Of a stretch of 64,000 bases of DNA, positions 3,030 to 8,465 are shown piece by piece. The stretch is taken from positions 1 through 64,000 of the forward strand of contig CALCCF010000098.1 of NCBI GenBank assembly GCA_937899905.1, given 5' to 3'. Position 1 is the first letter of the stretch. Each line of letters starts with the position of its first letter. The notes below the pieces were generated by a model, which did not search any database, was not told the DNA's origin, and was given only the letters and a program-made list of their open reading frames with translations. Made by a program: the position numbers and the translations under genes. Origin of the DNA: an uncultured Phycisphaeraceae bacterium. GTDB lineage: Bacteria > Planctomycetota > Phycisphaerae > Phycisphaerales > UBA1924.

Positions 3030-4439
3030 CTACATCTTGAGCCGCGCCGCAAGTTCCTCGAAGCCCGGCTTGCCCATCAACGCGAACGTCGCCTTCTTGC
3101 CAAGCTCGACGGCGGGCTGGTCGTACGCATCAACACCCAGCATCAGGCCGGCGTACGCGGTGGCGACCTGCCAGAGCATCATGAACTGGCCGACGGTGTG
3201 GGGCGTGACTTCGGGGAACCTGATGGTCAGGTTCGGGCGGCGGCTCTCGGTTAGCGCGAACTCGGTGGCCTTCTTCTCAGCGCTCAAGAGCTTGGCGAGG
3301 CTCGAGCCCTCGAGGTAGGCCAGTGCGTCCTCGCCGAGGCCGGCGGGAATCGTGACGTCGCTCGAGAACTTCTCGACCTCGAGGAAGATGATGGCCTTGT
3401 CGTTGGGCCCCTCGCGGTACAGCTGCACTTGGCTGTGCTGGTCGGTCGCACCGAGCGCCTTGACGGGCGTAAAGCCGGCGTAGGTCACGCCCTGCACGCC
3501 GCGAACGATCTTGCCCAGGCTCTCGGCCCACAGCTGCCGCCACCAGTCGGCCATGAGGTAGAGCTGGTTGGCGTAGGGCATCATGACGTGGACTGTCTTG
3601 CCCTGCCGCTGGCCGAGCTCGACGAGCACGGTCGCCAGCAAGGCAGCGGGATTGCCGTGCAGGTCGCCGCTGCGGCACGCCTGTTCCATCGCGGCGGCGC
3701 CGTCGAGCAGCTCGTCGATGTCGATGCCGCAGAGCGCGCCGCTGATGAGCCCCACCGGGCTGAGCGCACTGAAGCGGCCGCCGACGCCTTCGGGCACGGG
3801 AAGCGTCGCATAGCCCGCGGCGTCGCAGAGGCGTCGCATCGTGCCCTTCTCGGGATCGGTCACCGCGATCAACCGATCGGCGTGGCCATCGCCGCGGGCC
3901 TTCTGGAGAATGTCGCGCACGATCAGGAACTGGGCGGCCGTCTCCGCGGTCTCGCCGCTCTTGGAAATGACGACGAAGAGCGTGCGATCGAACTTAGGAT
4001 CCTCGCTGGTGATGAGCGACATCGTCTCGTGGAACGGCACCGGGTCGGCGTTGTCGAGCACGAAGAGGCGTGGGTTCGTGCGATCACCCTTCAGGTTGTG
4101 CGTGAGCGGGTTGAGCGCGCTCTGCAGCGCGATGTTGCCAAGGGCGCTCCCGCCGATGCCCAGAACGACGACGTTATCGAGCATGCCGGCGTACTTCTCG
4201 GCGATGGCCTTGACGCCCTTCACATGATCTTCACGCATCGGGCCCTCGGCCAGCAGCCGCCAGCGCTCCCAGCCGGTGCCTCGGGTGCTCTCCAGACGCT
4301 CGGTCAGCGCTGCGGCCGCCTTGGCCGCCGGGCCATTGGGGGCGAGAAGGTCGGGGTCGAGCCCGTGTTCGTGAACCGCTGTAGAAAGGCAGCGTGAAGT
4401 GTCGAGTGAGAGGTTCCTGGCGTGCGTCTCATTGGGCAT
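3030..4439 (-). CDS. pgi: Glucose-6-phosphate isomerase
   Basis: This 469-residue cytoplasmic enzyme interconverts glucose-6-phosphate and fructose-6-phosphate. The sugar-phosphate-binding segments VVLGIGGSALG and VVISKSGETAET are clear, and the family signature appears as VPEGVGGRFSALSPVGL. The length fits the shorter bacterial PGI type rather than the roughly 550-residue E. coli type. It ends only 9 bases from the convergent dockerin gene, with no obvious hairpin in that gap. The start at 4439 has no strong Shine-Dalgarno sequence, so the exact N-terminus is uncertain. Other sugar-phosphate enzymes in the window are rpe at 25171 and eno at 51444. Confidence 0.95.
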   Translation of the reverse strand: MPNETHARNLSLDTSRCLSTAVHEHGLDPDLLAPNGPAAKAAAALTERLESTRGTGWERWRLLAEGPMREDHVKGVKAIAEKYAGMLDNVVVLGIGGSALGNIALQSALNPLTHNLKGDRTNPRLFVLDNADPVPFHETMSLITSEDPKFDRTLFVVISKSGETAETAAQFLIVRDILQKARGDGHADRLIAVTDPEKGTMRRLCDAAGYATLPVPEGVGGRFSALSPVGLISGALCGIDIDELLDGAAAMEQACRSGDLHGNPAALLATVLVELGQRQGKTVHVMMPYANQLYLMADWWRQLWAESLGKIVRGVQGVTYAGFTPVKALGATDQHSQVQLYREGPNDKAIIFLEVEKFSSDVTIPAGLGEDALAYLEGSSLAKLLSAEKKATEFALTESRRPNLTIRFPEVTPHTVGQFMMLWQVATAYAGLMLGVDAYDQPAVELGKKATFALMGKPGFEELAARLKM

Positions 4440-4532
4440 GGCGGGAGGGTAGATACCTCACGCTTGGTTCCCATCGAAATGAAGCCTTCGCGCCATCTTT
4501 GCAGGCGTATCGATCCCCTATCCTCCCCGTTC

Positions 4533-6770
4533 ATGCCCCGCCCCACTCGCGTCGGCATCCTGCACAACCGCTTCTCCGGCAAGGGCCGGGGGCCAGACTT
4601 CGTCGCCCGGCTGCGCGCCCGCGTGGCGGGAGGTGCAGAGCTTCGCGAACGCTACGACCTGACCGACCTGCCGCTCGATCTGGCGACCGCCGAGGGCGCG
4701 CTCGATCGGCTTGACGCGGTCGTTCTGGTTGGCGGCGACGGCACCATCCATCACGCGCTGCCCGCGCTCACCGCCGCGAACGAGGGCCGCGGCATCCCCA
4801 CGTTGCTGGCGCCGCTGGGTACCGAGAACGTGATCGCCCGCGAGCTCGGCCACAAGCCACGCGTGTCGAGCACGCTCGACGCTCTGGACGCGTTCCGCGA
4901 AGGCGCGTCGACGATGCGGAGCGATCTCGGTACGGTGCACCACCCGGATGGCTCTGGAAGCGTCCACTTTGCGCTCATGCTGACGACGGGTCCCGACGCC
5001 GCAATCCTCCACCGTGTCGCCCGCGCACGCACCGGCACCACGAGCAAGCTGCTCTTCGTCCGCCCTACCGTCGAGCGCGCATTCCGACCAAAAATCGGCC
5101 GACTGAGTGTGGCCGTGGATGGCACCGAGCTTGCCAGTGACCGCCGCGGGTGCCTCATCGTCGCGGTCGGCCCGCGCTATCCGCTCAAGCTCGACCTTGC
5201 CCGCCACGCCACACGCACGGACGGCCTGCTGGACGCGATGTTCCTGCCCGCCAGCAACACCGCAAGCCTGCTCGGCTGGGTCGCGCTCGCCCGCCTGGGC
5301 CTGCACGTGAAGCACCCGCAGGCCCGCTACGCCCAGGGCCGACGCATCGAATTCACGATGCACGATCATGATCCGAGCGACGAGATGCTCGAGGACCTGC
5401 AGATCGACGGCGAGATCGAGCGCGCGGCCTGCGATGGCCAGGGCCGCATGGTCATCGAGAGCGTGCCCAGCGCGTTGCCGCTGATCCTGCCCGCGCCGAC
5501 CGAGGTGCGAGCCCGCCGTGGACAACCCGCCATCGCCGGGTGCTACCCTTTCCTCAACATGGTGTTCGCGAACCTCGTCAACGTGCTCGTGGGCGTGCTC
5601 GGCCTGGCCGTTCTGGGCGTGGGCATGTTGGTCTGGCGGGGCCGGAGGGTCGAAGGTCCACACTGCCGCCGCTGCTGGTACGACCTGTCAGGCGTTGAGC
5701 AAGACCAACACCCACCCTGCCCCGAGTGCGGCTACCAAGCGCGGCACACGCTCGACCTACACCCCAGGCGTCGGCGATGGAAGGCACTGGGCGTCTTCGC
5801 CGCATCGGCGGTCGCGATCATCGTCCTGCCCTGGCCGACGGATCTCGGGCAGCGCACGTACCCGTTGCTGCCCGATCACGCCCTGGCGATCATCTACGCC
5901 AACAGCAACGACCAGGAGGTGCGTAGACGCTTGGCGATCAAGCTCGTCAACCACGCGCAAGCAGGAAGCCCATTCCCAGACCACACGCTCCGCGTGATGA
6001 CCGAGGGCGCGATCAAGAAGGCGACTGGTTCCGGACGCCATCGATTGGCCGAAATGGATGTGCACGTGCTCATGAGCGCGCGCTGGCAGTTCGACAACGC
6101 GACAGATTCGGCACGCCTGGCCGCATTAGGCCAGAGCCTGTACGGCCACCCCGACCGGTCCGTACGCGAGACCGGCGGCCGCCTGTCCGCCGATGCGCAC
6201 GACCCGGCCTCGACCGCTCCGTTCGCCATCGAGATGTCCCAGAGCCCCGCGCTCGAGCGGCGACAGGCCGCGCGCGAGGCCATCATCGAGCACCTCGCGC
6301 GCATCGGACCGATCTACGACGACACCGAGAACGCCCTGTACCAGGCGTACGTAGCCATGCTCAACGACCCGGACTACGGGATCCAGCAGCTCACCGAATC
6401 GGGCATCAACCATCTGGTCGCGTTGGACGACGACCGTCCCGACCTGGCGGCCGCGCTCCTGGACCTCGCGCCCCGCACGAGGTACGCCAGAGCGTGCCGC
6501 GCCGAACAGTTGGCCTTGCTGCTACGCAACACCCGACTCGAGGCGTTCGCGCGCGACATCGTGCTGCATGGCGACGAGGGCGAACGTGAAGCCTTCCTGC
6601 ACGAGCTTGAAGACCTCTATCGCGACGATGCGATCCGCGCGGCAGAGGCCATGCCCGTCGTATTCGAGCGGCTCGAACGCCGTGGGCTCGACCAATTTGA
6701 CATCAGCGACTGGCTCCACGACGCCGAGGACTTCTGCACCAACCGCTGGGCCCACGAGCTCGGCCCATAA
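4533..6770 (+). CDS. Diacylglycerol-kinase catalytic domain fused to membrane zinc-ribbon/HEAT-like module
   Basis: The product has 745 residues from the ATG at 4533; the frame is open upstream but overlaps the pgi promoter region. Residues 1-330 form a lipid-kinase (DAGK/YegS-like) domain with HNRFSGKG at 11-18 and the nucleotide motif GGDGT at 67-71. After a short linker, an ATG-headed module begins at residue 343: a membrane segment (344-368), a zinc ribbon with C378, C381, C396 and C399, a second membrane segment near 415-432, and an alpha-helical HEAT-like region to the end. The next gene encodes the same module without the kinase. The join lies at 5500-5560, where the DNA looks like intergenic sequence but has no stop. 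Kinase function is likely from family membership; the role of the second half is unknown. Confidence 0.75.
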   Translation: MPRPTRVGILHNRFSGKGRGPDFVARLRARVAGGAELRERYDLTDLPLDLATAEGALDRLDAVVLVGGDGTIHHALPALTAANEGRGIPTLLAPLGTENVIARELGHKPRVSSTLDALDAFREGASTMRSDLGTVHHPDGSGSVHFALMLTTGPDAAILHRVARARTGTTSKLLFVRPTVERAFRPKIGRLSVAVDGTELASDRRGCLIVAVGPRYPLKLDLARHATRTDGLLDAMFLPASNTASLLGWVALARLGLHVKHPQARYAQGRRIEFTMHDHDPSDEMLEDLQIDGEIERAACDGQGRMVIESVPSALPLILPAPTEVRARRGQPAIAGCYPFLNMVFANLVNVLVGVLGLAVLGVGMLVWRGRRVEGPHCRRCWYDLSGVEQDQHPPCPECGYQARHTLDLHPRRRRWKALGVFAASAVAIIVLPWPTDLGQRTYPLLPDHALAIIYANSNDQEVRRRLAIKLVNHAQAGSPFPDHTLRVMTEGAIKKATGSGRHRLAEMDVHVLMSARWQFDNATDSARLAALGQSLYGHPDRSVRETGGRLSADAHDPASTAPFAIEMSQSPALERRQAAREAIIEHLARIGPIYDDTENALYQAYVAMLNDPDYGIQQLTESGINHLVALDDDRPDLAAALLDLAPRTRYARACRAEQLALLLRNTRLEAFARDIVLHGDEGEREAFLHELEDLYRDDAIRAAEAMPVVFERLERRGLDQFDISDWLHDAEDFCTNRWAHELGP

Positions 6771-6776
6771 TCCACT

Positions 6777-7991
6777 ATGAGCCTCGCCGGCCTGATCAGC
6801 ATCGCGGTCGTCCTCGTCGGCATGGCGATCGTCGTGCTGGGCGTAGTCATGGTTGTCGGCCGCCGGCGTTCGACGGACCCCGAGTGCCCGCGGTGCCGAT
6901 ACGCGCTGGCGGGGCTGCCAGGGGCGGATGCGCCCCTGGAGCGCTTCGAGCCCATCACCTGCCCGGAGTGCGGGCACACCGCGCAGAAACGCAAGCTTCT
7001 ATATCGACGCAAGCGCCGGCCCGCATGGATTGTCGCGGTCGTCCTGGGCGCGGCGATCGCCGCCGAGCCGCTGTTCGTGGGTTCGGCCAATCGCGTGTAC
7101 GACGGGCTGTCGGACTCTTCGATCGCGTGGCTCTACGCCAGCTGGGCCGACCCCGCCGCCATGGGCATCGTCGAGGATCGCCTGGGCCAGCGCGGCGCGC
7201 AGAACCAGCCGTTCCAGGATGCGGACCTGCGTGTCATGGCCGAGGGTGCGCTCGGGCGCATCGAGCGCGGGCGTGTCGGTGACCAGACGGTGTACCTCGA
7301 CGTGCTGATCCTGTTCGAGTACGACCATCGCGCACCCGATCCCGAGTTCACGGCCCAGGTTGCCGAGGCCATGCCGTCGCTGTTCGGCCACTTCTACGAA
7401 CAACTGCGGCTGGCCGCGGCGGAGCTCTCGTCCGATCGGCACGACCCCGAGGGCTCGGCCGGCCCCGCGGTCGAGGCGATCGACGACGAGGACTGGGTAG
7501 TGCGCCAGACCGCGGCGATCGCGCTGTTCACCGCGCTCGCGCGCGGCGCCGAGGTCGGCGAGGCGTTTGTCAAGGCGCTCGAAGATCCCGACGCCCGCGT
7601 CCGCGACCGAGCGGCGCTGCTCCTACAGCGGCACGCGGAGGTGGAACTCCTGCCGGAGCACTTCCGTGAGCCGGTCCGGTCGGTCGAGCCGATGAACGCC
7701 ACCGTGGCGTGGGCTCGGACCCTTGGCATCCTGGCGACCTATCACGGCGAGGATCGGGCGATCGAGCTCGAACGCCGCCTGCGTGAGGGCGACCGCGACA
7801 CGCAACTGCTGGCGATCGAGGCGATCCTGATCGAGCCCAACCTGCGAGACCGCCTCATGCCCAACGCACGCCAGGCCATCGGCTCGATGCCCCCGCTCGA
7901 GTGGCTCCGCCAGAACCTGCGGGGCTATCGACCGATCGAGGACCTGCTGGACGAGCTGGGATTCTCCGCCGCGGCGGACGGCCCGGGCTGA
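6777..7991 (+). CDS. Membrane zinc-ribbon protein with HEAT-like repeats (paralogue of preceding C-terminal half)
   Basis: This 404-residue protein begins 6 bases after the previous stop, with no clear ribosome site, so translation is probably coupled. Residues 3-28 form a membrane segment. Cysteines 37, 40, 62 and 65 form a zinc ribbon (CPRC and CPEC). A second membrane segment follows near 80-95, then an alpha-helical region with HEAT-like repeats, for example DPDARVRDRAALLLQRHAE. It aligns by eye with the preceding protein after residue 343; compare DLRVMAEGALGRIE here with TLRVMTEGAIKKAT there. This points to tandem duplication. No enzymatic motif is visible; a scaffold or interaction role at the membrane is only a guess. 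Confidence 0.75.
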   Translation: MSLAGLISIAVVLVGMAIVVLGVVMVVGRRRSTDPECPRCRYALAGLPGADAPLERFEPITCPECGHTAQKRKLLYRRKRRPAWIVAVVLGAAIAAEPLFVGSANRVYDGLSDSSIAWLYASWADPAAMGIVEDRLGQRGAQNQPFQDADLRVMAEGALGRIERGRVGDQTVYLDVLILFEYDHRAPDPEFTAQVAEAMPSLFGHFYEQLRLAAAELSSDRHDPEGSAGPAVEAIDDEDWVVRQTAAIALFTALARGAEVGEAFVKALEDPDARVRDRAALLLQRHAEVELLPEHFREPVRSVEPMNATVAWARTLGILATYHGEDRAIELERRLREGDRDTQLLAIEAILIEPNLRDRLMPNARQAIGSMPPLEWLRQNLRGYRPIEDLLDELGFSAAADGPG

Positions 7992-8465
7992 TCACGGCAC
8001 GGCGGCCCGCCTTCTCGGACCACCCAGGAGTGCGAGCGGCCCGGAACGGCGAGAATCGGCCTGGTATGGGCATTCCTGGCGTAGCCCGGTCCGGATAATC
8101 GGGCGGCCGGGTCTTTCAACCGTCCCGCCGGGCTCCCCGACCGCTCCACCGGGCTCTTCGACCGTGCCGCCGGGCTCTCCGGCCGCCCCGCTGCGCTCTC
8201 CCACCGCCCCGTTGCGCTCCCCGACCGTGCCGCACGATTCCGCGCCCGGGCCGGCGCGGGCCGTGATCGCACCGCCGGGACGACCGGGCGTGGGTCCGCG
8301 TGCTCACGCCCGCGGCTCGGAAGGACGAGCACCCCCTCTGCTCCACTTCCGCTCCGCCCTGTGTTGATCTTGTCTGTGCCCCAGTCGCGCTGTGGTGAAC
8401 TTCTCCCCTCCCCTACAGTTGCCGCCCGATCGAACTCGGGGGCCATTCCGAGGAAGGGAATCACC
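7992..8465 (+). other. 474-base intergenic region upstream of aspS
   Basis: No convincing gene is present on either strand. Frames on both strands stay open, but their products are low-complexity runs of Arg, Pro, Gly and Ala that follow a 21-bp repeat at 8098-8244. The aspS ribosome site, GAGGAAGGG, is at about 8450-8458. I could not identify a convincing sigma-70 promoter, T-box or other leader for aspS. Confidence 0.6.
8098..8244. repeat. Seven-unit degenerate 21-bp tandem repeat
   Basis: Seven consecutive 21-base units begin at 8098, 8119, 8140, 8161, 8182, 8203 and 8224. The best-conserved units read roughly ACCGTSCCGCCGGGCTCYCCG; the first and last are the most diverged. The period is an exact multiple of three, so it would encode a heptapeptide repeat if translated (for instance GGTVEEP-type units on the minus strand), but no start site or neighbouring domain supports a protein. 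There are no unique spacers between units. Confidence 0.85.

Follow-up and report, generated by a model that had tools for sequence, protein, structure and literature searches.

Kinases of the YegS type phosphorylate lipids such as diacylglycerol. The locus described here combines a predicted lipid kinase of this kind with a membrane protein in one reading frame. It lies in a 64,000-nucleotide stretch of DNA from an uncultured Phycisphaeraceae bacterium (the window: contig CALCCF010000098.1 of assembly GCA_937899905.1, positions 1 to 64,000). The window kinase resembled the YegS/DgkB kinases (PF00781 with PF19279; TIGR00147) in both domains, in the GGDG motif and in fold. Unlike the kinases of this type in 67 other genomes examined, its frame ran on into a membrane module. 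We consider it very likely that this is a lineage-specific fusion frame, formed by loss of a stop codon and real at the DNA level. We also lean, by a smaller degree, towards a fusion with a retained internal start at position 5559, the locus probably giving both a 745-residue and a 403-residue product.

In the accessible parts of the literature, leaderless genes carry a TANNNT element about 10-12 bp ahead of the start codon (PMC3160421), and leaderless genes of that signature are described in Deinococcus-Thermus (PMC12340547). The accessible part of a study of 260 genomes, including one planctomycete, names the Planctomycetes among the phyla with a leaderless and/or S1-type bias (PMC5397173). 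The genome of the window was like the first two of these systems in having a TAnnnT peak near ATG, and the hexamer TACCCT at the junction started 15 nt before ATG 5559. It differed from the leaderless genes of PMC3160421 in that TACCCT, a putative element, stood inside an open frame, over a lost stop and at the outer limit of the spacings seen in this genome. Short-spaced termination-reinitiation pairs, as described in the accessible parts of PMC6728339 and PMC10666635, were matched by three members of the same genus (congeners), in which the corresponding membrane protein gene began 3 nt past the kinase stop, in frame. The window differed from such pairs since the stop was gone, so that there would be no termination at that point.

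Structure of the fused frame

The locus consisted of the following parts:

4533..5543, + strand: kinase module, residues 1-337 (Pfam DAGK_cat and YegS_C; DgkB 2qv7 fold; congener identity).
5544..5546, + strand: TAC (Tyr338), aligned with the kinase TAG of four congeners (junction alignment and read-through search).
5547..5558, + strand: CCT TTC CTC AAC, four codons between the former stop and ATG 5559 (3 or 6 nt in congeners).
5559..6770, + strand: P0003, transmembrane helix, zinc ribbon, transmembrane helix and helical module, 403 residues, a diverged paralog joined to the kinase in the same frame.
6777..7991, + strand: P0002, a stand-alone membrane zinc-ribbon/HEAT protein of 404 residues, ortholog of the congeners' single post-kinase gene.

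A single open frame of 745 codons occupied 4533-6770 on the + strand, with the previous stop in the same frame at 4407 and the next at 6768. The initial annotation, made from the window alone, had described a kinase fused to a membrane zinc-ribbon module and followed by a tandem stand-alone copy, and the Pfam domains, the frame and the alignment of P0003 with P0002 agreed with this description. DAGK_cat (PF00781) matched residues 7-118 with 43.1 bits (Pfam cut-off 23.6) and YegS_C (PF19279) residues 151-317 with 36.3 bits (cut-off 27). The NCBIfam model TIGR00147 scored 39.6 bits, below its cut-off of 118.65, and the kinase is thus probably a distant superfamily member outside the named TIGR00147 subfamily. 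The fold of the kinase part matched DgkB (2qv7; Z 24.3 over 276 residues, root-mean-square deviation 3.2), YegS (2p1r; Z 23.7) and sphingosine kinase 1 (Z about 24), in a search with the 745-residue model that chiefly probed residues 2-339. Invariant in 28 aligned sequences were N12, G16, GGDG 67-70, E98, D131, D230, D234 and DG 292-293, which we take to include the catalytic signatures. Judged by sequence and modelled fold, the kinase part is a YegS/DgkB-type lipid kinase, with lipid phosphorylation as its predicted activity.

The 745-residue model, built on 28 sequences, had a predicted local distance difference test score (pLDDT) of mostly 84-97 over residues 1-320 (in blocks of ten), with weaker blocks of 66-76 at 151-190 and 281-300. 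The linker, residues 324-344, fell below 50, and the two modules therefore look independent. Beyond the linker the model had two long helices flanking the ribbon, then helical repeats, and an end that was again poor.

P0003, the C-terminal 403 residues of the frame, was 31% identical to P0002 over 284 aligned columns (BLAST, E = 9e-23). The claim that the C-terminal 400 residues align with the whole of the next gene held by BLAST over residues 10-272 of P0003 only, the final ~130 residues being aligned in the family alignment alone. Each copy contained two CxxC pairs (CRRC/CPEC in P0003, CPRC/CPEC in P0002), and the segment TLRVMTEG/DLRVMAEG was common to both, as had been reported. With two CxxC pairs each, both proteins are of the zinc ribbon kind, zinc binding being putative; Pfam ribbon models matched them below cut-off. 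The HEAT label given to the module was supported for P0002, which matched PF13646 (31.3 bits, cut-off 27.7) and PF02985 (27 bits, cut-off 23.5); for P0003 the Pfam search returned nothing above cut-off. The P0003 model was nearly all-helical (mean pLDDT 67) and weakly resembled armadillo-type repeats (best Foldseek E 4e-4, template modelling score about 0.3-0.4). In a PDB sequence search the ribbon-family profile matched designed alphaREP chains, among others. No function was named for the ribbon/HEAT protein by Pfam, NCBIfam or PDB sequence searches.

Among the matches listed in the family profile search, the full ribbon/HEAT protein was confined to this genus. The ribbon profile matched in 112 of the 163 genomes of the window's family, and outside the genus it did so in the N-terminal part formed by the two transmembrane helices and the ribbon. 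This module of ~95 residues (transmembrane helix, CxxC zinc ribbon, transmembrane helix) recurred in many proteins of the family (for example at L003, L004 and L038-L064), often several per genome, without other match to the window protein.

Probable loss of the kinase stop codon

The kinase was found in 133 of the 163 family genomes searched (E <= 1e-10). The genus comprised seven genomes including that of the window, and six had the kinase; in G077 no kinase match was found. Identity of the window kinase to those of the five congeners was 67-76%. In G079 and G076 the kinase was followed by one full ribbon/HEAT gene. The gene following it in G078 (L066:4929-6032) had its ribbon deleted, with two hydrophobic segments and the rest of the protein kept, and G074 had a 94-codon remnant (L068:5100-5384) in which the first hydrophobic segment and the C-terminus survived. 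No ribbon gene was seen downstream of the kinase in G075. All four congeners with any ribbon gene (G074, G076, G078 and G079) had TAG at the codon aligned with TAC 5544-5546 of the window. Their kinases ended in ...KPAMAGG-TAG, and the window read ...QPAIAGC-TAC. The gap from stop to start was 3 nt in these congeners (6 nt in G074), before a GTG or ATG in frame. In the window 12 nt lay between TAC and ATG 5559, also in frame, and the junction was free of stops, as the initial annotation had noted.

For 68 of the 133 kinase-bearing genomes the DNA downstream of the kinase was examined, at the 30 loci that matched best and at 40 chosen ones, with two genomes in both sets. In 67 of these the kinase stopped ahead of any ribbon module, and only the window was fused. 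When 400 genomes sampled from the order, with the window's family among them, were searched with stops read through and at most two candidates scored per genome, 291 gave a match somewhere. The window matched over residues 1-745 without a stop. Matches that crossed the junction, each with one TAG, were those of G079 and G076 (to residue 686), G078 (to 373) and G074 (to 391); no other among the matches listed crossed residue 342. P0002 of the window matched residues 343-615, wholly past the junction. The stop in relatives and the lack of another fusion in the genomes examined suggest that the fusion is derived and, on present data, unique. An aligned stop in relatives, none in the window and a downstream gene in the same frame are what a fusion by stop-codon loss leaves, and the lineage-specific fusion or stop loss proposed at the outset is thereby supported. 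A conserved stop near 5540 in relatives had been expected to speak against it. Such a stop does exist, yet what it points to is a derived stop loss, or else an error of one base. Stop-loss fusion is a known and ordinary kind of event. The unusual detail, missed by the initial annotation, is that the promoter-like -10 element of ATG 5559 includes the lost stop codon.

Downstream of the ribbon gene or its remnant in the four congeners was aspS. In other genera, kinase and aspS stood in the same fetched stretch at at least 6 of 40 loci (L159-L198, short stretches), and at L160 the kinase stopped at 3210 with the aspS match beginning at 3252. Given this adjacency, the ribbon gene looks like an insertion between kinase and aspS in this genus, and it is undergoing loss or reshaping species by species. 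Further congeners were sought in genome contigs. Among 45 loci, good near-full-length kinase matches were found only at L084 (73%) and L085 (68%), which were G076 and G075 again; this contig search may omit records of the window's own genome.

Two candidates were rejected. A 766-residue open frame in G074 was not a second fusion, as it extended upstream instead and the kinase there ended in TAG. A ribbon open reading frame (ORF) in the kinase frame of G104, from another genus, was not the same gene: it encoded a different protein, whose BLAST scores with P0002 and P0003 were meaningful in the ribbons only. This protein (L168:4567-5766) followed the kinase in frame after TGA and had ribbons near both ends.

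The probable internal start codon

Three -10-like hexamers preceded the start codons of the locus:

4519..4524, + strand: TATCCT, 8 nt before the kinase ATG 4533, a putative leaderless promoter (matrix score).
5544..5549, + strand: TACCCT, 9 nt before ATG 5559, overlapping the former stop (matrix score and TAnnnT count).
6766..6771, + strand: CATAAT, weak, 5 nt before ATG 6777 (matrix score).

Promoter signatures were counted in 560 kb of the window genome with 387 called ORFs, start-region ATGs being the in-frame ATGs of the first 50 codons. TAnnnT stood 5-9 nt ahead of 42 of 549 start-region ATGs and of 6 of 2131 internal ATGs, 5559 being among the six. Congener DNA, sampled to a smaller extent, showed the peak as well, with 11 of 122 and 3 of 644 at the same spacing. 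This enrichment, like the open frame, the relatives' aligned stop and the absence of fusion from the other genomes examined, is a direct observation. With a weight matrix trained on 38 sites, those of this locus left out, ATG 5559 ranked second among the 2131 internal ATGs, and 14 of the 549 start-region ATGs scored at least as high. The score of the kinase ATG 4533 exceeded those of all internal ATGs, and that of ATG 6777 was reached by 68 of them. The sole internal ATG that outranked 5559 was deep within a long frame, presumably of a putative glycosyltransferase from its appearance, and looks like chance. A Shine-Dalgarno class stood beside the strong leaderless-promoter signature in the window genome. 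The -10 signature and the matrix rank indicate that ATG 5559 probably was a start with its own promoter and may still be one, and we regard the preservation of this start as rather probable.

Membrane topology and predicted products

Both window copies had no lysine or arginine before the first transmembrane helix, 11 and 14 in the ribbon loop and one after the second helix. The congener copies had 6-13 in the loop and 2-4 after the second helix. By the positive-inside rule this distribution would place the ribbon loop inside and both ends outside, a topology that opposes a cytosolic N-terminal kinase and is better fitted by a separate start. Since an ATP-dependent kinase would not be expected to function on the outer side, the fused chain would have to invert the hairpin, misinsert the first helix or be a by-product. 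This clash favours two products, the short one with the ancestral function.

In the history that we propose, the kinase stop was lost in this lineage, the TAG of relatives having become TAC in the window. The kinase frame would then run through four more codons and on into the diverged paralog of a membrane protein specific to the genus (transmembrane helix, zinc ribbon, transmembrane helix, helical repeats). ATG 5559 most likely stays a start, by means of TACCCT, which includes the former stop, 9 nt upstream, an arrangement like that of the genome's leaderless genes. Two products would result, a 745-residue kinase-membrane fusion from the kinase promoter and a 403-residue membrane protein from the internal start. 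The shorter would carry the ancestral function, and the fusion would anchor the lipid kinase at the membrane. Transcription from 5559, the synthesis of both products and any function of theirs are what we infer. A further-reaching version is possible though rather doubtful. Here both would be working proteins from one frame, a membrane-anchored kinase of 745 residues and a 403-residue protein with a leaderless -10 element at the old stop; the base change by which the stop disappeared may have helped in shaping the promoter, and low-level read-through of the single TAG between the two in-frame genes of congeners may already have supplied a fused form.

If the proposed history is correct, this is a gene fusion caught at one codon, with unfused relatives at the kinase identities given above. 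It suggests a way for a downstream gene to remain expressed after the upstream stop is lost, namely by a promoter inside the joined frame. In leaderless-rich bacteria, one long annotated frame may be two genes. In the accessible parts of the open-access literature we found nothing on fusions of a lipid kinase with HEAT repeats or on a diacylglycerol kinase fusion in Planctomycetes, and an open-access search combining Phycisphaerae and zinc ribbon found no paper.

Alternative explanations

The initial annotation had taken the joined copy for a recent tandem duplicate. The two copies lie side by side, and no congener has more than one at the locus, as a recent duplication whose copy ran into the kinase would predict. 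Against this, P0002 shared 41-45% identity with its counterparts in G079, G078 and G076, whereas P0003 was 28-32% identical to P0002 and to the same three ribbon genes alike. These ranges exclude the G074 remnant (23% and 35% over 91 columns). A tree with 37 other ribbon rows of the family united P0002 with the genes of the three congeners in one clade (Shimodaira-Hasegawa-like approximate likelihood ratio test, SH-aLRT, 98), with P0003 outside and its own attachment weakly supported. The duplication thus seems to predate the divergence of these species, and the best reading of P0003 is an older paralog that the window genome kept and the congeners lost. A recent duplication followed by fast divergence of P0003 could still fit this single quick tree of 162 columns, made without bootstrap, but we consider a recent duplication very unlikely.

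An assembly or base-calling error, by which the true codon at 5544-5546 would be TAG and the genes separate, seems improbable, though somewhat less so. One base change at the aligned codon suffices, the genome is a draft assembly of 113 contigs, TAG stands at this codon in the four congeners with a ribbon gene, and TAGCCT is itself an acceptable -10 hexamer, seen three times next to starts in the sample. However, a consensus error seldom falls on any one given base, and the 12 nt past the codon also differ from those of relatives, so the junction has diverged in any case. A frameshift or indel error, proposed for checking by the initial annotation, was rejected: no single indel restores a nearby stop, the next stops in the other two frames being at 5995 and 5696. 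A fusion with a single product, in which the 745-residue protein is all that matters, with the kinase anchored by the ribbon module and the hexamer before 5559 a chance match or a relic, is a possibility that we hold to be distinctly less likely than two products. The frame is intact over 745 codons, the kinase residues N12, G16, GGDG and others are invariant in the 28 sequences, and the ribbon is intact; YegS-type kinases act on membrane lipids, which makes tethering plausible. It is opposed by the charges, which predict a cytosolic loop with both ends outside, contrary to an N-terminal cytosolic kinase, and by the upstream score, which was that high in just 2 of 2131 internal ATGs, 5559 included. 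Several points weigh against a retained internal start and against the fusion itself. A spacing of 9 is at the edge of the range, with 3 of 549 start-region ATGs compared with 16 at a spacing of 5, and the internal ATGs at spacing 9 were 2 of 2131, one of them 5559. The joined chain has three lysines or arginines in the 30 residues before and into the first transmembrane helix, fewer than in the ribbon loop, which softens the topology argument. The fusion was seen in one genome only, and since TAC and TAG are one base apart, a consensus error in the draft assembly would remove it.

Other features of the window

At gathering thresholds, Rfam found nothing in the window beyond one tRNA. A tandem array of a 21-nt unit in about 5 copies (8107-8232) lay upstream of aspS, just downstream of the promoter-like CCGGATAATC. 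Period-21 signals were present at the same place in G079, G078 and G074, with a different unit sequence in G079 and G078, and none was seen in G076. The window unit was not dispersed in the genome, as its 35 matches with at most two mismatches were at background (32 for the reversed pattern). A literature search found no description of period-21 arrays. Other such arrays were at L074:9380-9600 and L131:1345-1600 in the window genome and at L079:2180-2420 in G079, with locus-specific units. By eye, these further arrays often alternated as 42-mers and had short palindromic cores. The three strongest clear arrays in the 560 kb of the window genome had period 21. When the threshold was relaxed, arrays whose period was another multiple of three were equally frequent (14 arrays of period 27, 7 of period 12 and 7 of period 21), and these periods perhaps reflect repeats in coding DNA.

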